DNA of 40,226 nucleotides from a virus. Both the position numbers and the translations under genes were made by a program. The first letter of the stretch is position 1. Each line of letters begins with the position of its first letter. The notes under the pieces are model-generated. The model was not told the origin of the DNA. It searched no databases and was given only the letters and a program-made list of their open reading frames with translations. The stretch lies in IMG/VR virus record IMGVR_UViG_3300046506_000475, positions 1 to 40,226 of that record. One strand, written 5' to 3'. This document shows, one piece after another, positions 1 to 38,858 of the stretch.

Positions 1-1197
1 TCAGGCTTGTACCGATTTTATACCAATCATCGCTTGCTCAAGCTTTCCGACCTCTGACCAGTCAGTTGTTGACGATAGCCATTTTGCGTAAGTCGTCAGT
101 AACACCTGGACGCTGTGGCCAAGCTGGCCGGCGATAAACGCAGGGTTCATGCCTGCCATTAGACACATAGTTGCATAGGTGTGTCGGCAGTTGTACTGCG
201 GTCGATGCCGTAGATCAAGCGCCGTCAAAGCCTTGCTGAACTGGTCGCCGGTTTGAGACGGGCGGCAGATGAATTCAGACCCTCCCGATGGCGGAAACAC
301 ATACTGCGATTTGGTCTTGATTCTCCGACGCTGTAGCAGTCGATCATCGGCGATCTGCTTGGCTTGCCGCAGGGCATTCAACGCTCGGCTATTAAGCATT
401 ACCGTCCTCGCGTACTTCGTTTTGGTGCGCTCCTCTACTTCCCCATCTACGACGATTCGGCAGACGTGTGCAGTGCGCGCTTCCATGTCGATCTCATCCC
501 AACGCAACGCCGCTATCTCTCCGGTTCTCAGCCCGCTGAAGAACGCAAATTCAAAGTAAGCGGCAAATATCCGCACGCCTGGCTTTTTAAAATTCGCGTA
601 CATCCACTCAACGATTACAGCCGCTTCATCACCCGAAAACGGATCTACCTGCTTTTTTGCTTTTTTCGGGAGCTTGATCGGCGTCGCCGGATTGCGATCA
701 AGCAACTCATCCTGCACGGCAGACTTCAGTAGTGAAGTGACCCGCGCTATCGACTCGCGTTTAATCGACTGTGTTTCCCAAACTGTTTCGCTTATTACCC
801 TGCGTAGCACCATCGTGGTGATTGCCGTTATCGGTAGCTGCCCAAGCCATGGCATCCAGTAGGTATTGATCGTTGCGCGATAGTTTCTCCGAGTGCCCGG
901 CACGATCTCCAAACTATCAATCCAGGCCTGGGCGTACTCGCCGAACGTCATCACCAACGATACAGGCAGGTAGCTGGAGTTGGGGAACAGCTCAGCGTAT
1001 CGCTGATCATCCAAAACCCCATGCTTTGCCAGGCTTATTACTTGATCGCGTAAATCGGCTGCCGCTTTAATCCCTTTTGGGGTTTGTGGGTGTGCGAGAG
1101 TCTCGCAGCGTCGCTCGCCTCTCCAGGTGAAGCGAATGCGAATGGACTGGCCAACGATTTCAACTCCTGTGGGCAGGCCCATTGGCTTTCTAGCCAT
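1..1197 (-). CDS. int: Phage integrase (tyrosine recombinase)
   Basis: Site-specific recombinase expected to integrate and, with the excisionase, excise the prophage. The 398-residue protein has an N-terminal arm-binding domain of the DUF3596 type (about residues 1-70), a core-binding domain (about 80-170) and a catalytic domain. Catalytic residues visible are Arg224 (SGLRTGE), a Lys near 259-261, Arg338, His361 (LGHS) and the nucleophile Tyr370. The usual His of the HxxR box is Tyr335 (YNCR); I believe this is a known variant among related phage integrases. The ATG start is supported by an AGGAG box on the minus strand, and the first codons overlap the end of the excisionase gene. The stop codon is the first base of the window, so attL lies immediately outside it. 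Confidence 0.95.
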   Translation of the reverse strand: MARKPMGLPTGVEIVGQSIRIRFTWRGERRCETLAHPQTPKGIKAAADLRDQVISLAKHGVLDDQRYAELFPNSSYLPVSLVMTFGEYAQAWIDSLEIVPGTRRNYRATINTYWMPWLGQLPITAITTMVLRRVISETVWETQSIKRESIARVTSLLKSAVQDELLDRNPATPIKLPKKAKKQVDPFSGDEAAVIVEWMYANFKKPGVRIFAAYFEFAFFSGLRTGEIAALRWDEIDMEARTAHVCRIVVDGEVEERTKTKYARTVMLNSRALNALRQAKQIADDRLLQRRRIKTKSQYVFPPSGGSEFICRPSQTGDQFSKALTALDLRHRPQYNCRHTYATMCLMAGMNPAFIAGQLGHSVQVLLTTYAKWLSSTTDWSEVGKLEQAMIGIKSVQA

Positions 1198-2818: not shown

Positions 2819-3000
2819 TTCGCAGTCTATTTTATGTCTAAATTAACCCTTGTCTGTGTGCTCAAGTAAACTTCTAAATTGAAGTGCGGTGCTGGAGCGA
2901 TGCTTTTTATTTCGCTAAAATCATTGGGTCAGTCATAATGTTGCTGATGTAGAAAAGGTTAATGTGATTACGAGTTTAATGGCCTCGTAGTGTCCAGTGA

Positions 3001-3099
3001 GCATGTAAAGCATGTAAAGCATGTAAAGCATGTAAAGCATGTAAAGCATGTAAAGCATGTAAAGCATGTAAAGCATGTAAAGCATGTAAAGCATTGAAA
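3001..3099. repeat. Ten-copy 9-bp tandem repeat (GCATGTAAA)n
   Basis: Ten perfect head-to-tail copies of GCATGTAAA occupy 3001-3090, followed by one degenerate copy (GCATTGAAA). They lie in the 380-base non-coding gap 2819-3198, about 100 bases before the PutAbiC-like gene. Open frames through the array encode only monotonous LYM or HAL repeats and have no ribosome site, so I read it as non-coding. Such arrays change copy number by slippage and could alter promoter spacing, or could be clustered protein-binding sites. Apart from this array I see no gene in the gap. Confidence 0.95.
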
Positions 3100-3198
3100 T
3101 CGTTATGTCCGATAGAAAGTTCAACACCGTTTTGCCACGGCGGTGATAGCAATACGTGATTTGCCGTAGGGTTTATAGTTTTGGAAAGTGGAGTTGTT

Positions 3199-5627: not shown

Positions 5628-5669
5628 CGCTGCCTTCCACCTGGCCGGTTGTTATCCGGCGACGAGGTA

Positions 5670-5698
5670 AATTAACCGCCGGTTTATATTTATGTCAA
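5670..5698 (-). promoter_or_regulatory. Leftward early promoter PL
   Basis: On the minus strand a perfect TTGACA (bases 5698-5693) is followed after 17 bases by TTAATT (5675-5670). One operator lies in the spacer and the other just upstream of the -35, so repressor binding would block it. It should drive the minus-strand genes from 5627 downward. Confidence 0.75.
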
Positions 5699-5711
5699 TA
5701 CCGGCGGTTAA
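5672..5711. promoter_or_regulatory. OL-like operator pair
   Basis: Two inverted copies of the operator: AACCGCCGGTT at 5674-5684 (perfect dyad about a central C) and TACCGGCGGTT at 5699-5709 (the reverse complement with one change). Centres are 25 bases apart, matching the 24-25 base spacing at the repressor-cro operators. They overlap the PL promoter. Confidence 0.85.
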
Positions 5712-5720
5712 TTTATTTTT

Positions 5721-5748
5721 TTGTAAAGGTGGGTTAAAATTTTAAAAT
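5721..5748 (+). promoter_or_regulatory. SOS promoter of the DUF1654 gene
   Basis: TTGTAA (5721-5726) and TAAAAT (5743-5748) are separated by 16 bases. The expected start point near 5755 falls inside the LexA box, so LexA would cover it. Confidence 0.55.
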
Positions 5749-5749
5749 G

Positions 5750-5765
5750 CTGTATATTCATACAG
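5750..5765. promoter_or_regulatory. LexA box
   Basis: CTGTATATTCATACAG fits the gammaproteobacterial LexA consensus CTG-N10-CAG with an AT-rich alternating centre. It ends 19 bases before the ATG of the DUF1654 gene. Confidence 0.85.
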
Positions 5766-5784
5766 TATCTTTTTGAGGTTTAAG

Positions 5785-6096
5785 ATGGCCAGCGAACGGA
5801 AGAAGCAAGAACAAAAATCAGAAATGAGCGGTATGGAGCGCTTAGCGTTGCGCGTTTCATCGATGATCAACCACCCCGTGGCGCAGGCGCAGCGCTGGGT
5901 GACGATTCATCGCCTGGACACGGACGGAGATCGGGAGTGGGAAGAGGTTCTAGGGGTGATAGCCGAAACCGACGAGCTTGAGTTGACGCTCAATGACGAT
6001 GGCAGCGTGACGGTAAGGTGGGAGCAGCTGGAAGTCGAGGCGGCAGGGCAGGGTGAACCTGCATTTGAGCAGGAAGAGGAGGTGGCGCCTTTCTAG
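5785..6096 (+). CDS. DUF1654 protein, LexA-controlled
   Basis: A 103-residue protein of family DUF1654 (PF07867), recognisable from MERLALRVSSMINHPVAQAQ, then RWVTIHRLDTDGDREWEEVL and the closing IAETDELELTLNDDGSVTVR. The family is common in Pseudomonas and its phages; its biochemical role is not known to me. ATG has GAGG eight bases upstream. A LexA box covers the promoter, so expression should rise on DNA damage, and the OL pair lies 60 bases further upstream. The acidic tail (EQEEEVAPF) is poorly conserved. Confidence 0.85.
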   Translation: MASERKKQEQKSEMSGMERLALRVSSMINHPVAQAQRWVTIHRLDTDGDREWEEVLGVIAETDELELTLNDDGSVTVRWEQLEVEAAGQGEPAFEQEEEVAPF

Positions 6097-6220: not shown

Positions 6221-7042
6221 GTGTTTTCCGAGAAAGAGATAAAAGCGGTTCTTATTGACTGGCTTTTTGACAGGGGCATGGTTAATGACGCTGTTATTGT
6301 TAACGAGATGGTTGTAGCCAACTGGTCTCGACGAGCGGACATCGCCGTTGCTAATGGTCGCCTCTATGGCTTTGAGATAAAAAGTCATTTTGATACTTTG
6401 AAGAGGTTGCCGGGTCAAGTTGAGTCTTTTCAGGCGCATTTTGATAAGGTCGTTGTAGTTGCCGCGACCAAATTTATTGCCTCGATACAACGGGACTATC
6501 CTTCAGAAATTGGAATACTCGAGGTTTACAACGCGTCTGGTCGTGCAAAAATTCGTCAAGTTCGACCTGGTCGTATATGCGAAGTTAAGGATGTCTCAAA
6601 GCTCACAAGCCTAATAACCAAGTCAGAGCTTGAAAGATTTGTAAAGCAGAGTGGCGTACCATTTCAGGCAGGAATGCTTAGGTCCGAGCTGGTCAACGCC
6701 TGCGGCTTGAGAGCTTCCAAACAGCTACGATCATATGTTTTAGACTGCATCAAGCAAAGGTATAGTAGTTCATTCAGAAATTTCTTAAATGAACGACAGG
6801 TCTGTACGACTGAGGCATGCCTTGATCTCCTCAGCAAAAGCGCAACAATTCGGGTTAATCTCGAGCGTCAGGTCGCTATGTATAGCGAAGGGTATCATCC
6901 AGCTCAGCGCGCTGAAAAAAAGATAGACTTCAGCATACTGGGTGATGGGATTGAGGCTCTCGAATTTGAGATGCCTCAATCAGTGTTGATACGTCGAAGG
7001 ACTCAGAAATCAAAGTCGTCGAAGTCTTCTTCGTCAGACTGA
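6221..7042 (+). CDS. sce7726-family nuclease-like protein
   Basis: A 273-residue protein of the sce7726 family, which I read as a PD-(D/E)xK-type nuclease fold. From the GTG start the candidate catalytic residues are Glu29 (VNEMVV), Asp40 (RADIAVANG), Glu52 and Lys54 (YGFEIKSH), followed by Gln66 in GQVESF, a Qxxx(Y/F) motif as in RecB/Cas4-type nucleases. The rest is helical, ending in a Ser/Lys tail (KSKSSKSSSSD). AGGAG lies ten bases before the GTG at 6221; the frame extends to a GTG at 6194 with a weaker site. It converges on the beta-family gene and overlaps it by 40 bases. In other genomes sce7726 genes lie beside sce7725/beta-type genes. Substrate unknown; a defence role is inferred. 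Confidence 0.75.
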   Translation: MFSEKEIKAVLIDWLFDRGMVNDAVIVNEMVVANWSRRADIAVANGRLYGFEIKSHFDTLKRLPGQVESFQAHFDKVVVVAATKFIASIQRDYPSEIGILEVYNASGRAKIRQVRPGRICEVKDVSKLTSLITKSELERFVKQSGVPFQAGMLRSELVNACGLRASKQLRSYVLDCIKQRYSSSFRNFLNERQVCTTEACLDLLSKSATIRVNLERQVAMYSEGYHPAQRAEKKIDFSILGDGIEALEFEMPQSVLIRRRTQKSKSSKSSSSD

Positions 7043-8082
7043 CTTTTACTGTTCAAGTCTATCTGTCGACTAATATGCATGTTAACCCGGGCGGCGATCC
7101 ATGACGCAGGGGTTTTCATATTGTCGATCTCACCTTGTGCTGCTTTCATGATTTTCTTCGCTCCCCATGTTTCATCATCTGCTATCTCAGGAAATGCGTC
7201 GATAATATCTTCGGCCGCTGAAATGTACCCTTGTGAATTGGTGTCTGAGCGTCGCTCAAACACCCAAGCATCATTTAAGGGGTAATCAATTCGAGCGATA
7301 AATCTCCCGCCGGAAGTTGTATATACTCTCGAGTGTATAGATCCATGGTCGCCATATATTACAGCCTCTCTGCCTATCGCGGCATGGAGTTTCGTCTCCA
7401 TGATGTCAATTACTCCGGTTTTTCCCTTGCTATTGACATCTATAAAAGGCATGACTGAGGATGGGAAGCTAGTTGATGCGACGCTTATGATTGCGCTATC
7501 TACTTCGTCCCTAATAGAGTTTATCAAGGTCACAGTTCCGGCAAGCGAAGCGTGAAGGGTATCTCTAATATAACCTGCATCAATTATTACAAGTGCATTA
7601 TCCGAAGAATCAAGCGCTGACAATGCCGCAATTACGTTGTTTGTCTGGTTGCTAAAACTACTAATCTTAAAAACAATTTTCCCGAGCCCGGCATTCTCAA
7701 AGGCGCGAGCCTGTCGGATCACCTGAGATATTTTTGAGTCATCAGTTATTTGAATTACTGGGATTATCGGGTGATCAATTTTGCTAACGAAATTCCTCCA
7801 GTTTTTAAAATCAGAATCTGGGTTTCTAAGCTCAAAGATATCCTTGGTTAGGTAGCTCGGGTCTGTAGTCAGATCCAAAGCAAAAGGCCTACCATTACAA
7901 GCTGAAATTACTTCTCTCAGGGATGTGACAGTATCAGTTTGTCGTGGCCAAACACCAAGAGTGAACAAAGGGATTACGGCATCTTTACATGAGTCAGAAA
8001 GCTCCCCGAAACCTTTTACTTCCGCTGGCCGGCTTCGCAGGTTTGGATAATAGGTGTAATCGTTAAAGTCAATTTTCATCAA
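7003..8082 (-). CDS. Beta-family protein
   Basis: A 359-residue protein of the beta family (PF14350, related to sce7725). The N-terminus shows the typical Y-x-P-x-L-R-x-R-x-x-E signature (YYPNLRSRPAEVKG) followed by IPLFTLGVWP. The middle alternates strands and helices (PIIPVIQITDD, IVFKISSF, ALVIIDAGYIRD), like a barrel. The tail is very acidic (SDEEDFDDFDF). Two adjacent ATG codons follow GAGGAT. Its start overlaps the end of the upstream TM gene by 14 bases, so both are on one message and probably coupled. Biochemical activity of the family is unknown to me; neighbourhood suggests it works with the nuclease-like and membrane proteins. Confidence 0.75.
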   Translation of the reverse strand: MMKIDFNDYTYYPNLRSRPAEVKGFGELSDSCKDAVIPLFTLGVWPRQTDTVTSLREVISACNGRPFALDLTTDPSYLTKDIFELRNPDSDFKNWRNFVSKIDHPIIPVIQITDDSKISQVIRQARAFENAGLGKIVFKISSFSNQTNNVIAALSALDSSDNALVIIDAGYIRDTLHASLAGTVTLINSIRDEVDSAIISVASTSFPSSVMPFIDVNSKGKTGVIDIMETKLHAAIGREAVIYGDHGSIHSRVYTTSGGRFIARIDYPLNDAWVFERRSDTNSQGYISAAEDIIDAFPEIADDETWGAKKIMKAAQGEIDNMKTPASWIAARVNMHISRQIDLNSKSQSDEEDFDDFDF

Positions 8083-8527
8083 TCATATCCTCAGATTCAA
8101 TCCTTTGCTCTTTGGGGGACTGCCCTGAAGCTTTTTTAGAGCCCGGGGTGGCGCGTTGCCGAGGTTTGACGGCACTCTTCGTAGCTGTAGCTATCACATA
8201 TGATCCGATTTCAGTAAGTCTGTCGTTTGCATATTCCAGTTCGCCAACTCTCGCCGCTAGTTCTATTGAATTTTGCGTCTGTTCAGCAGCGGTGTGGCTT
8301 AATACTCCATTTATCTCAATTAACTTGAAACAGAGCCGTGTTAGAAATGTGCCTATAAGAATTGCCGAAATCCATCCAGACAGACTTAACCATAAATTTC
8401 TCTCCCCAGAGTTTGAGTAGTAGACAGACAAAGCGATACCCGCGGCGCCCAAAAAAGTGCCAGCTACACCGTAGTAAAACCCTGCGAGCGAGACGCTATC
8501 GGAATGTGATTTTTTTTGATCTGCCAC
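8069..8527 (-). CDS. Two-TM protein with coiled coil
   Basis: A 152-residue protein with TM helices near 15-37 (FYYGVAGTFLGAAGIALSVY) and 45-68 (LWLSLSGWISAILIGTFLTR), a helical segment rich in Glu, Asn and Leu (TQNSIELAARVGELEYANDR) and a basic, Lys-rich tail. The GTG start has GGAGGG five bases upstream. It leads the beta-family gene in a two-gene operon. The layout, membrane hairpin plus cytoplasmic coiled coil beside a nuclease-like gene, is typical of effectors or sensors in anti-phage modules, but I recognise no named family. Confidence 0.6.
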   Translation of the reverse strand: MADQKKSHSDSVSLAGFYYGVAGTFLGAAGIALSVYYSNSGERNLWLSLSGWISAILIGTFLTRLCFKLIEINGVLSHTAAEQTQNSIELAARVGELEYANDRLTEIGSYVIATATKSAVKPRQRATPGSKKASGQSPKEQRIESEDMIDEN

Positions 8528-8568: not shown

Positions 8569-8784
8569 CTAAACTCTTCGCTCATTACGGTTTAATAGAA
8601 CTACGTGCAACGGCAACCTTGGCGAAATTAGCTTTTGTTGTCCGATAGGGGGCTGGACGCTTCTGGACTGCTGCTCCGCATCCATATAGCGCATCTTTTT
8701 TGAGCCAAAAGTCGACTTGAGCCGGTTTGTAGAGTCTTTAAGATCGTGACTATTGGCTGGGTTTACCGTGGGGTATGGCGTCAT
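8569..8784 (-). CDS. Doubtful 71-aa frame coupled to repressor
   Basis: A frame whose ATG overlaps the repressor stop codon as ATGA, so it could be translated by re-initiation. The product (starting MTPYPTVNPANSHDLKDSTN) is polar, with many basic residues, and I recognise nothing in it. There is no independent ribosome site. It fills most of the 253-base gap between the repressor and the TM gene, which otherwise holds nothing I can name. Confidence 0.25.
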   Translation of the reverse strand: MTPYPTVNPANSHDLKDSTNRLKSTFGSKKMRYMDAEQQSRSVQPPIGQQKLISPRLPLHVVLLNRNERRV

Positions 8785-9641
8785 ACCGGTTGTCCGTTCC
8801 ATACATACAGCACCCGGGCCAGGATGTGGGTGTCATCCACTCGGATGTCCTCAGCGTCATGGTGCTTGTTGTCCGAGATCATCTTGAAGCGGTCCTTGCC
8901 TTTCTTCTGCAGCCGCTTCACGTAGAGCATGTCGTCATGGGAGAAGAGGTAGATACCGTCACCCATGAACTCCCGAATAGTAATATCCACCAGCAGCGGG
9001 TCACGATCCTTGATCGTTGGCGCCATCGACTGACCCCACCCGGTAATCATTTTTAGGTGAAAGTGTTCTTTGAAGGTGAGACCGAGGTCGCGTAGATGCT
9101 TTGGGCTGACTCTGATGTCCTGGAGCATTTCCGGGTATTCATGAGGGATCTGCCCACCGCCCATCGCTGCGCGCACGTCGTAGTGGGCAATCCAAACCTC
9201 GTCGCCTATCTGACCTGGGCGAGAAAATTCAACCGGAACCATATTACCTAAATCGCTTTGCTCCGCAGCTGCAAGGAGGCTTGCGCGAGCGGCATCTGAA
9301 AGACCTTTCCCTTTTGCTGCGAGCATCTGCCGAACCATTTCCGATGCTGAAAGGCCGGCGTCTTGATGATCAATACTCGTCAGTCCAGCAATCTCAACTG
9401 CGAGCCGCTTACTGAAACGTTCAACGGGGACCCCCAGTAGCCTGGATAGGACGGCTGCGAATTTCGCGTTGAGCGGATTCGTTCCGTTTAAATACATGGC
9501 TACCGCCGCGGCCGATATATCAGCCGCCTCAGCCAAGCTGGCCTGAGTTAGGCCCAGCGCATTCTTCTTTGAGACGAACAGGGCTTTCGCCGCTTCACAC
9601 TCAGCTTTGAGTTCCGGGGACAGCTCTTTCTTTTTGGTCAT
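8781..9641 (-). CDS. cI: CI-like repressor, S24 protease type
   Basis: Master lysogeny repressor of 286 residues. An N-terminal XRE helix-turn-helix lies near 28-60 (LGLTQASLAEAADISAAAVA), a linker follows to about 150, then a LexA/UmuD-type S24 domain with Ser205 (GWGQSMAPTI) and Lys242 (LYVKRL) as the catalytic pair. RecA-stimulated self-cleavage, probably near AAMGGG (158-163), would inactivate it. It faces Cro across three operators, and matching operators lie at 5674-5709. The ribosome site is weak and the first operator sits within ten bases of the ATG, which suggests autoregulation. Confidence 0.93.
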   Translation of the reverse strand: MTKKKELSPELKAECEAAKALFVSKKNALGLTQASLAEAADISAAAVAMYLNGTNPLNAKFAAVLSRLLGVPVERFSKRLAVEIAGLTSIDHQDAGLSASEMVRQMLAAKGKGLSDAARASLLAAAEQSDLGNMVPVEFSRPGQIGDEVWIAHYDVRAAMGGGQIPHEYPEMLQDIRVSPKHLRDLGLTFKEHFHLKMITGWGQSMAPTIKDRDPLLVDITIREFMGDGIYLFSHDDMLYVKRLQKKGKDRFKMISDNKHHDAEDIRVDDTHILARVLYVWNGQPV

Positions 9642-9650
9642 TTGTGAAAT

Positions 9651-9712
9651 TTAACCGGTGGTTAAGTTATTTGCGCTAACCGCCGGTATTGCCTGAAAAC
9701 TAACCGCCGGTT
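9651..9712. promoter_or_regulatory. OR-like operators (three sites)
   Basis: Three copies of the 11-bp operator: AACCGGTGGTT (9653-9663), AACCGCCGGTA (9678-9688) and AACCGCCGGTT (9702-9712, perfect). Centres are 25 and 24 bases apart. The rightmost copy is identical to the perfect copy in the OL-like pair. They fill the repressor-cro gap. Confidence 0.9.
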
Positions 9713-9717
9713 AATAT
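9689..9717 (+). promoter_or_regulatory. Rightward early promoter PR
   Basis: TTGCCT (9689-9694), 17-base spacer, TAATAT (9712-9717). The third operator lies in the spacer and the second abuts the -35. The predicted start near 9724 lies after the ATG at 9721, so that ATG cannot be the cro start unless a promoter further upstream is used. Confidence 0.7.
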
Positions 9718-9750
9718 TGCATGCACACATCATCCTTGTTGGGCCAAGAA

Positions 9751-9951
9751 ATGAAGAAGACGCCGTTACCCGAGTTGGTAGGGAGGATCGGGCAGACCGC
9801 TGTCGCCAAGGCACTCGGCGTCAGCTCTCCTGCCATCTCAAAAGCACTTCGAGCCCAAAGAGATATTCAGGTTCAAGAGCACCCGGACGGCACATTAACC
9901 GCTGAAGAGGTACGACCGTTTCCATCGCAAAGCAGCGCTCTGGTGGGGTGA
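9751..9951 (+). CDS. cro: Cro-like repressor
   Basis: A 66-residue DNA-binding protein with a lambda-Cro-type helix-turn-helix (IGQTAVAKALGVSSPAISKA, about residues 13-32) followed by a beta hairpin (IQVQEHPDGTLTAEEVRPFP). It should bind the same operators as CI and favour the lytic cycle. I chose the ATG at 9751 because the predicted PR start point lies near 9724; the frame is open to an ATG at 9721. The ribosome site is weak. First gene of the rightward early operon. Confidence 0.8.
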   Translation: MKKTPLPELVGRIGQTAVAKALGVSSPAISKALRAQRDIQVQEHPDGTLTAEEVRPFPSQSSALVG

Positions 9952-12369: not shown

Positions 12370-12578
12370 TGGTACCGATTCGCCTGGCCGTACCGGTCCC
12401 GGCTAATTACCGCTACGCGGTGCATTGCTGCGGCTTCAAGTTGGACATGGATGTATTGCCTGACCATGCGGTGGCTTTGTTCGCTGATGAGGCCATGGCC
12501 AAGCGCTACGGCGATTGGATGTGGCCGACAACATTCGAGGTCGTTGACCTTTTGGCCCCGAAGGAGGGCATTGCTTGA
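12369..12578 (+). CDS. Hypothetical protein (69 aa)
   Basis: Small 69-residue protein with no family I recognise. It starts MVPIRLAVPVPANYRYAVHC and contains an ADEAMAKRYGDWMWPTTFEV segment. The ATG shares a base with the helicase stop, and AAAGGA lies upstream. Its own stop overlaps the TTG of the recombinase gene. Tight packing shows it belongs to the replication operon. Confidence 0.65.
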   Translation: MVPIRLAVPVPANYRYAVHCCGFKLDMDVLPDHAVALFADEAMAKRYGDWMWPTTFEVVDLLAPKEGIA

Positions 12579-13903
12579 ACACCAAAATCAAAACCCTGAC
12601 GGTAAAACTGTCAGATGCCGAGATCGTGCGCAATGCCAAGCTTGAGCACGTGCGTGACCTGCGGGATGCGAGCCACCCGGCTTTACACTTCCGGTACTTG
12701 ACGAACCGCACTCGCGGCTCCTGGTACTTTCTTCACAAGCGCCAATGGCATCTTATCGGGCACTTCCCAGACCTGAGCAGTAAGCAGGTGGTCGCGGCGC
12801 TGCCGGCGGTGCGCCTTCGTGTGGCGGCTGACGGCGCGGCCAGTGTCTCGGGCTGGGTGGCCGTTGGCGAGCTGCTCGACTGGTTCGGTGAGCGCATGGC
12901 GAAGTCGCGCTCGCTGGGCGGCAAGCGTCGGTCAGCCATCAAATCGGCGATCGGCTGCCAACTCAAGCCGCGCCTGGATGATTTGCTGATCAGCGACGTA
13001 AACGCCCAGACCTTGGACAAGCTGCTGATGTGGCCGGCACAGGCAGAACTGTCGCTGTCGTATGTGCAACAGCTGTTTCGCCTTGTCGTCATGGCCTTCC
13101 GTCAGGCGCGCAAGCTCGACCTGATCCCCGTCAATCCAGTGGCAGAACTCAAATTCAGCCAGTTCACCACCGCGCGCATCCAACCCAAGCCCGCCCGCCT
13201 GCGCGATGTCCAACTGACGGATTTGGTGACATTGCTCGCCGACCGTTTCGACAGCGCACCAGGTGACGCCATGCTGGCCTTGATGATGCTGTGCCACGGC
13301 ACCCGGATCGGTGAAACCCGACAGGCGCGTTGGGCTGACATTGCACTGCCGGAGCGCGAGTGGTTCCTGCCGGCCGAGCACACCAAGACCAAGACCGAGC
13401 TGCGCGTGCCGCTGACCGATCAGGTGTGCGGGCTGCTGCGTCGTTACCGTGGCCGCCAGGCCGCCCAGGGATATGAGGGGGCTTTTCTGTTCCCGTCACG
13501 CCGTGGCAAGCCGCTGAGCGATAACCAGGCGAGCGCCGTGTTTACTCGGTTGGGGCAGGGCGCCTGGACCAGTCATGACCTGCGCAAGGTGGCTCGTACG
13601 GCCTGGACTGACCTTGGCGTTGACGGCCATATCGGCGAGATGCTGCTCAACCACTCGCTGGGTAAGATCGCCTCCACCTACATCAACACGCAGGCCAAAG
13701 AGCAGCGCCGACTGGCTCTGGTGAAGTGGCACGACTGGTTAGATGAACGTGGCTTTAAGGCGATTCACAAGCAGACAGGCGCTAGATATGAAGATTCGCA
13801 AAACCTCGTAGACGCATTGAACGGCGGGGCCTGCGAGCCAGAACCACAATTTGTTAAGGGCGAGGTTTTAAAACATGCAGAAAGGGCAGAGGGCTGGATT
13901 TAA
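12575..13903 (+). CDS. Second tyrosine recombinase
   Basis: A 442-residue tyrosine recombinase within the replication operon, distinct from the integrase. Catalytic residues are all visible: Arg244 (GTRIGETR), Lys271 or Lys273 (TKTKTE), His334 and Arg337 (SHDLRK), His360 (LLNHS) and Tyr369 (STYIN). The N-terminal third has an arm-like beta domain (HFRYLTNRTRGSWYFLHKRQ). The TTG start has AAGGAGG at seven bases and overlaps the previous stop. An integrase here, far from the attachment site, may resolve multimers or act at a second site. The C-terminal tail overlaps the next gene by 29 bases. Confidence 0.9.
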   Translation: MNTKIKTLTVKLSDAEIVRNAKLEHVRDLRDASHPALHFRYLTNRTRGSWYFLHKRQWHLIGHFPDLSSKQVVAALPAVRLRVAADGAASVSGWVAVGELLDWFGERMAKSRSLGGKRRSAIKSAIGCQLKPRLDDLLISDVNAQTLDKLLMWPAQAELSLSYVQQLFRLVVMAFRQARKLDLIPVNPVAELKFSQFTTARIQPKPARLRDVQLTDLVTLLADRFDSAPGDAMLALMMLCHGTRIGETRQARWADIALPEREWFLPAEHTKTKTELRVPLTDQVCGLLRRYRGRQAAQGYEGAFLFPSRRGKPLSDNQASAVFTRLGQGAWTSHDLRKVARTAWTDLGVDGHIGEMLLNHSLGKIASTYINTQAKEQRRLALVKWHDWLDERGFKAIHKQTGARYEDSQNLVDALNGGACEPEPQFVKGEVLKHAERAEGWI

Positions 13904-38262: not shown

Positions 38263-38472
38263 ATGACGATTGATATCGAACAGATAAACGCTATGGAAGC
38301 GTGGTTCGCGCTGCGCAACGACGCGACGCTTATATCCGCCACACCGGAGGAGCGCTACGAGACTCGGCTCAAACTGGCGGATGATTTGCTGGAGCGGAAG
38401 CTGGTAGACAGCGGAGAGTGGAGGGAGCTGGTCGAGGAGGCGACAGCTGCCTACGCCGAAGAGTTAGGCTGA
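38263..38472 (+). CDS. Hypothetical protein (69 aa)
   Basis: A 69-residue acidic protein (MTIDIEQINAMEAWFALRND, then RLKLADDLLERKLVDSGEWR). Helical and Glu-rich. Converges with the minus-strand gene and overlaps its end by nine bases. Unrecognised. Confidence 0.6.
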   Translation: MTIDIEQINAMEAWFALRNDATLISATPEERYETRLKLADDLLERKLVDSGEWRELVEEATAAYAEELG

Positions 38473-38823
38473 CGGCTCTTTGAGTACCCTCAGTTCCAGC
38501 AGCAGCCGCTGATTCTCCCTGAACAGGTGGTCGCGCTGATGGGCGATTAGTTCCAGGCTGCGCAACTTGGTACCCATTTCTGAGGTATCAAGGTTGAGCC
38601 GCCCAACATCGGCGAGAGCCTTCTTGAGGGCGTCTTCGGTAGACGCTTTCCCGGTGGCTAGGTCGTCGCTGAGCTGCACCAGCCCCGCGATATTTGATCG
38701 AGCCCTGCGCAGCATCACCTGGGTCTGGTTGAGCTCGTCCTCGAGCAGAGCACAGTGATGCTTGTACATTTCCAGTGGCGTAGGGCAGCCGAGCCACGCG
38801 GAGGTATCTTCGTCGATGTTCAT
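38464..38823 (-). CDS. LexA-controlled coiled-coil protein
   Basis: A 119-residue protein of heptad-rich helices (YKHHCALLEDELNQTQVMLR, then SLELIAHQRDHLFRENQRLL). It has no membrane segment. A LexA box lies 20 bases upstream of the start, so it should be induced with DNA damage, like the DUF1654 gene. No ribosome site is obvious. Function unknown. Confidence 0.65.
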   Translation of the reverse strand: MNIDEDTSAWLGCPTPLEMYKHHCALLEDELNQTQVMLRRARSNIAGLVQLSDDLATGKASTEDALKKALADVGRLNLDTSEMGTKLRSLELIAHQRDHLFRENQRLLLELRVLKEPSA

Positions 38824-38842: not shown

Positions 38843-38858
38843 CTGTATGTGCATACAG
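38843..38858. promoter_or_regulatory. LexA box, second copy
   Basis: CTGTATGTGCATACAG, the same CTG-N10-CAG form, within a longer dyad (TACTGTATG...CATACAGTA). On the minus strand TAGAAT (38865-38860) lies just before it, the same -10 then LexA-box layout as at 5743-5765. Confidence 0.85.

Follow-up and report, generated by a model that had tools for sequence, protein, structure and literature searches.

A predicted LexA-repressed promoter of a DUF1654 gene in the immunity region of a lambda-like Pseudomonas prophage

The DNA analysed, referred to here as the window, is the entire 40,226-base stretch of IMG/VR virus record IMGVR_UViG_3300046506_000475. It carries a lambda-like switch in which cI (minus strand) and cro (plus strand) flank an OR region with three operators. 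A tyrosine integrase gene occupies one end of the window (1–1197) and a gene that we take to be folD-like lies at the opposite end. Besides the integrase, a second tyrosine-recombinase-like protein (PF00589) is encoded at 12575–13903, and open reading frames at ~2976–3127 read (HAL)n or (MLY)n, which corresponds to a short tandem repeat. The gene of interest encodes a DUF1654 protein (PF07867; 91.2 bits against a cut-off of 27), lies to the right of OL and points towards cI. From the sequence, we infer that its upstream region is a LexA-repressed (SOS) promoter, situated in the immunity region of a Pseudomonas prophage of the lambda type. The layout resembles OL/PL and OR/PRM of phage lambda, as generally known, in having operators at OL and OR, cI and cro, and a leftward promoter at OL; lambda itself is not known to have a LexA-controlled gene on the OL side that points at cI. 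The features are listed in Table 1.

Table 1 Features of the immunity region and of the second LexA box (window coordinates).
Feature	Position	Strand	Remarks
OL operator, distal	5672–5686		TTAACCGCCGGTTTA; common to OL and OR
OL operator, proximal	5697–5711		Abuts predicted −35; 14/14 bases same as OR
PL promoter, predicted, leftward	5669–5698	−	TTGACA (5698–5693), 18 bp, TAATTT; score 11.51
DUF1654 promoter, predicted	5712–5740	+	−35 TTTATT (5712–5717), 17 bp, −10 TAAAAT (5735–5740)
Alternative DUF1654 promoter, predicted	5721–5748	+	TTGTAA-16-TAAAAT
LexA box	5750–5765		CTGTATATTCATACAG; 2 mismatches to idealized palindrome; conserved before DUF1654 relatives
DUF1654 gene	5785–6096	+	103 aa, ends EEEVAPF; Pfam PF07867, E 3.4e-26; phrog_2707
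cll-like gene (sce7726 family)	6221–7042	+	PADLOC cll, E 5.6e-99; NF033832, E 2e-38
beta gene	7003–8079	−	PADLOC beta, E 1.5e-156; PF14350, E 1.6e-49
gop-like gene, weak match	8069–8527	−	PADLOC gop, E 7e-6, 24.3 bits
cI-type repressor	8781–9641	−	HTH + S24 domain; AAM-GGG at cleavage position
OR, three operators	9651–9665, 9676–9690, 9700–9714		Between cI and cro
cro	9721–9951	+	PF09048, E 2.9e-22
Second LexA box	38843–38858		CTGTATGTGCATACAG; 19 bp before start of ORF 38464–38823 (−)

The initial annotation had placed a LexA box of the form CTG-N10-CAG near the DUF1654 gene. The bare pattern was rejected as evidence, as it occurs 11 times in the window with 12.9 occurrences expected by chance. 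The box itself is nevertheless present, and its full sequence performs better than 100 shuffles: CTGTATATTCATACAG differs from the palindrome CTGTATATATATACAG at two positions, and a search for CTGTATATATATACAG with up to three mismatches returned two sites in the window (5750 and 38843) and none in 100 dinucleotide shuffles.

Two sigma-70-type promoters were predicted for the gene, with practically equal scores (11.27 for TTTATT and 11.21 for TTGTAA) under approximate weights. The TTTATT-17-TAAAAT promoter is favoured, since its −10 element lies where most relatives have theirs; the best −10 begins 14–19 bp ahead of the box in 106 of 134 loci. With this promoter the predicted start is 5747 and the box spans about +4 to +19. 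The box had been proposed to overlap the start point; whichever promoter is used, its position is at +1 or immediately behind it. The promoter is also close to an operator, as had been stated, but the distance is 9 bp for the TTGTAA promoter and not 12, and the TTTATT promoter abuts the operator. The operators themselves were recognized by matches to motifs like TTAACCGCCGGTTTA, of which there are eight (both strands) at the five OL/OR sites, with 0.66 expected. The leftward TTGACA of PL sits between the two OL operators, so PL alone accounts for OL; the GTCAA core of PL was seen by eye in all 19 of the class A rows printed (class A being the immunity class of the window). A third OL operator at ~5723–5737, suggested by a half-site GGTTAA on the −10 region, was rejected, as by eye it is not kept in the class A relatives.

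Conservation of the box was analysed at 139 further DUF1654 loci (80 of 249 viral relatives and 59 from genomes), which are not independent, as some viral and genome contigs share identical stretches; with the window included, there are 115 distinct upstream sequences. A strict pattern, CTG[TG]A[TC]N4[AG][TA]ACAG on the strand of the gene and 20–90 bp before the protein match, was found at 133 of the 139 loci. On the gene's strand it occurs only twice elsewhere in 1,584,599 bases, and mononucleotide shuffles give about one occurrence per 1.58 Mb. Four loci that miss the strict pattern (L029, L030, L069 and L133) have a box with one outer base changed, and at L136 and L139 no full box was seen upstream of DUF1654. 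One of the loci, L078, carries a DUF1654 frame (5986–6096) that an early stop shortens to 37 residues.

A phage sample of 11 records, picked for diversity from 51 with a DUF1654 match and extending down to 39% protein identity, has a CTG-N10-CAG box in every record, with 12 to 14 of the 16 consensus bases. Eight of these boxes fit the strict pattern; those of LESphi3, D14S and TC7 do not. In two records, P52 and TC7, the annotated DUF1654 start falls within or ahead of the box; it has probably been placed too far upstream. Phage P54 encodes a second, divergent DUF1654 protein (L142:3668–3907, E 6e-11) back to back with the first.

DUF1654 is also widespread in genomes, and 102 of the 119 sampled from the genus contain it. 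With a slightly looser pattern, a box was found at all 38 genome copies examined; these comprise ten from four genomes, some already among the loci, and 28 of the best-scoring copies of a larger search. Most of the 38 look chromosomal by sequence, the neighbours having been read for two. Copies L151–L154 and L162–L189, which look chromosomal, have a LexA box closely upstream of the protein. Since such copies carry LexA boxes too, the ancestral role of DUF1654 need not concern prophages. Among plasmids, six records match DUF1654 by protein, with one weak DNA match. In the literature searched (titles, abstract openings and passages), no statement of a LexA rule for the DUF1654 family was found, and as far as our searches show this family-wide rule is new. 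A domain of unknown function present in most of the sampled genomes of the genus thereby becomes a defined SOS family.

A paralogue provides published evidence of LexA regulation. According to the text available from PMC4595014 (citing Abella et al., 2007), the P. putida prophage gene PP3901 belongs to the LexA1 and LexA2 regulons, its reporter rose with nalidixic acid and it is needed for the damage-mediated induction of other prophages; that text does not name its product. The printed primers gave no match in 199 genomes; in IMG/VR they located PP_3901 at L161:3041–3301, on a contig that we infer to belong to strain KT2440. PP_3901 is a DUF1654 protein of 86 residues (E 1.7e-32), and CTGTCTATGCATACAG, one base off the strict pattern, lies upstream of it. 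The one paper found to mention DUF1654 draws no such connection in its available text. As far as our searches show, this identity is new, and it assigns a family to a P. putida prophage gene for which a requirement in the induction of other prophages has been reported.

PP_3901, in prophage P1 of KT2440, thus shares with the window gene the DUF1654 domain, a LexA box and a prophage with a cI-type repressor gene. It differs in lacking the C-terminal PF described below and in its position, as it points in the same direction as the cI-rexAB operon and lies beyond the likely rexAB and hicAB genes. By gene order it would be transcribed away from cI, which falls outside the stretch fetched. The neighbouring open reading frames are presumably rexAB and hicAB, an assignment based on the accessible part of PMC12894663 and on general knowledge and not on a family search. 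PP_3901 is a paralogue and not an ortholog of the window gene. The conservation of the box, together with the published regulation of this paralogue, strongly supports the LexA control of DUF1654 that the initial annotation had proposed, and we consider it very probable that the predicted promoter in the window is under LexA control.

The position of the gene is nearly constant. In 133 of the 140 loci that include the window, a cI-type gene lies downstream of DUF1654 and is faced by it; of the other seven, four have little downstream sequence and two (L009 and L072) have cI further along the same contig. A search was also made from the C-terminal domain of CI, with 80 of 439 CI relatives kept. 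Among the 59 loci whose flank measures 6.5 kb or more, 57 have DUF1654 (52 with a box), as do 69 of all 80 (63 with a box). Because many of these contigs were already among the 139 loci, this search is a converse test and not an independent sample.

The N-terminal domains of CI fall into seven classes and one singleton, with operator motifs that were picked by eye from the same data and class sizes that vary slightly between analyses. The class-specific motif was found at OL in 118 of 124 loci and at OR in 97 of 124 (under those patterns, 0/20 in class E and 1/4 in class F), and a few off-class matches occur. When OL and OR are compared over 14 bases, 12 or more agree in the best match in 84 of 126 loci, compared with 4 of 126 when OR is shuffled. 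Across these N-terminal swaps the C-terminal domain of CI (mean identity 84%), DUF1654 and the box all stay. The repressors of the window and of L001–L139 look like domain swaps, with seven DNA-binding kinds and matching operators. For the 125 loci with CI longer than 200 residues and DUF1654 longer than 80, DUF1654 distances correlate with those of the CI C-terminal domain at r = 0.655 and with those of the N-terminal domain at 0.16; the two CI domains correlate with each other at r = 0.11. As a control, a replication gene was compared with the C-terminal domain in 44 loci and gave 0.15. For a luxR-like gene located near OL, r was 0.64, in only 16 loci, so the link to the C-terminal domain is not unique to DUF1654. 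As far as our searches show, this architecture, with a constant box, DUF1654 and CI C-terminal domain and a joint exchange of operators and N-terminal domain, is also new.

On our preferred reading, LexA on its box, at the start point or immediately behind it, would hold DUF1654 off, and RecA-driven cleavage of LexA would switch it on. OL would adjoin the promoter because it serves the divergent PL, and the influence of CI on the promoter would vary between immunity classes. The product would then promote the induction of prophages, most probably in trans, in the way reported for PP_3901; putative routes are binding of the CI C-terminal domain or action on RecA or SSB partners. We regard it as probable, though well short of certain, that a LexA-repressed promoter delivers a DUF1654 protein that helps to induce prophages. 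Taken separately, the role in induction, which is drawn by analogy from PP_3901, is slightly favoured.

A rival reading is that DUF1654 is a LexA-controlled antirepressor like Tum of 186, AntC of N15 or GfoA of the Gifsy phages and binds the shared C-terminal domain of repressors that cleave poorly, so that one prophage induces several. If so, prophages of different immunity could be co-induced in trans. The architecture described above is consistent with this proposal, as is the action on several prophages reported for PP_3901 in the available text of PMC4595014. The cleavage position is consistent too: in the 131 of 133 CI sequences that could be read it is Met-Gly (127) or Leu-Gly (4), where LexA has Ala-Gly. 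The initial annotation had called the repressor self-cleaving, which is uncertain for the same reason; its Ser-Lys dyad is kept in the window, and this intact catalytic dyad weighs against the antirepressor proposal. A PDB search with the CI alignment gave matches to the N-terminal, HTH-bearing part only, with none over the cleavage site.

Several further points count against the antirepressor. F116 and LESphi3 carry DUF1654 beside normal Ala-Gly repressors of another C-terminal type, so DUF1654 may not have one CI-binding function throughout, and chromosomal-looking copies exist. No relation of DUF1654 to a known antirepressor was found by family (Pfam gives DUF1654 only) or by significant fold match. 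An AlphaFold model of moderate confidence (pLDDT 71.6, pTM 0.51) has helices and three strands; it gave no match with E ≤ 0.001 in the PDB or BFVD, and a second fold comparison was uninformative (Z at most 6.4, mixed small folds). In the available text of PMC3121763, Tum, AntC and GfoA/GftA are, like DUF1654, small phage proteins behind a LexA box, and a role in induction is a further likeness, as reported for a paralogue of the DUF1654 gene. The same text places GfoA and GftA outside the immunity region and gives as their targets repressors without a cleavage domain, whereas DUF1654 sits between OL and cI and the CI here has an S24 domain. We hold the antirepressor as a tentative proposal that is more doubtful than the preferred reading.

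The next alternative concerns the promoter: OL and the box may form one joint switch at which CI and LexA both repress DUF1654. It arises from the geometry of the window, where the proximal operator abuts the predicted −35, an arrangement compatible with repression or activation, and from class B, where the nearest operator lies within the promoter spacer. The distance from the nearest recognized operator to the box is 38 bp in class A (19 loci) and 15 bp in class B (19 loci). However, classes C–G have medians of 73–104 bp upstream of the box (90 of 128 loci; single loci 19–127 bp), so that operators lie near the DUF1654 promoter in only two of the seven immunity classes (38 of 128 loci). The meeting of two switches, LexA and CI, at one spot thus holds in the window and not generally. 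As the distance differs by class, CI must affect the promoter differently in different phages. For classes A and B a joint CI–LexA switch is plausible; as the explanation of the arrangement as a whole, we consider one joint repressive switch rather unlikely.

A third possibility is that the C-terminus of DUF1654 gives it a part in recombination or RecA loading, with an indirect effect on induction. An alignment of 57 members has a conserved core of ~65 residues and an acidic tail, and 127 of 134 loci encode a protein that ends in PF with acidic residues ahead of it. Such an acidic tail ending in PF resembles the C-terminus of SSB. Against this, among the 11 phage records only VW-6S, D14O and AUS531phi have the PF ending. 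It is absent from F116, P54, TC7, LESphi3, phi297, P52 and D14S, from PP_3901 and from the two copies of chromosomal type that were read, so the PF tail is not the core function of the family. We consider an action through the tail unlikely.

It is equally unlikely, in our estimate, that the gene is an ordinary moron, a host SOS gene taken up by phages together with its promoter, which helps cells to survive damage and takes no part in the switch. Its frequency in genomes of the genus and the LexA boxes on the copies examined are what such a gene would predict, but its near-fixed seat between OL and cI and the requirement for PP_3901 in induction, as reported in the available part of PMC4595014, point the other way. 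Less likely still is that the class A promoter is a second PRM, activated by CI at the OL operator nearer to it (centre 5704, ~43 bp upstream of the predicted start; the centre of the matching OR operator, 9683, is 42 bp before the cI start codon) and repressed by LexA, with DUF1654 made only in a lysogen that lacks LexA and still has slow-cleaving CI, and disarming in trans all repressors with the conserved C-terminal domain across immunity classes.

The interval between DUF1654 and cI is a cargo slot, which in the window is occupied by cll, beta and a gene that matches gop weakly. These adjoining genes resemble the Gop-Beta-Cll cassette of the PADLOC models; the window copy differs in its setting, between OL and cI of a lambda-like prophage and downstream of a predicted LexA-controlled promoter. 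The gene that had been described as nuclease-like and 124 bases downstream is cll, and the 124-bp gap stands if GTG 6221 is the start; the listed open reading frame opens at GTG 6194. The same cassette is found in four of 150 other loci (L001, L028, L064 and L075), each with a 124-bp gap. Downstream of DUF1654, 60 of 133 loci have a terminator-like hairpin in forward orientation and 105 have one in reverse; 107 have at least one of the two. The window has none, so read-through from DUF1654 into cll is possible, and the two genes could share a message; the 124-bp gap may also hold a promoter for cll itself. As far as our searches show, a predicted defence cassette behind an SOS promoter is new, and it offers a testable tie between DNA damage and phage defence.

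The second site found with CTGTATATATATACAG lies near the right end of the window. The near-perfect box CTGTATGTGCATACAG precedes an uncharacterized open reading frame of 119 residues, which by this box is a probable second SOS gene of the phage.
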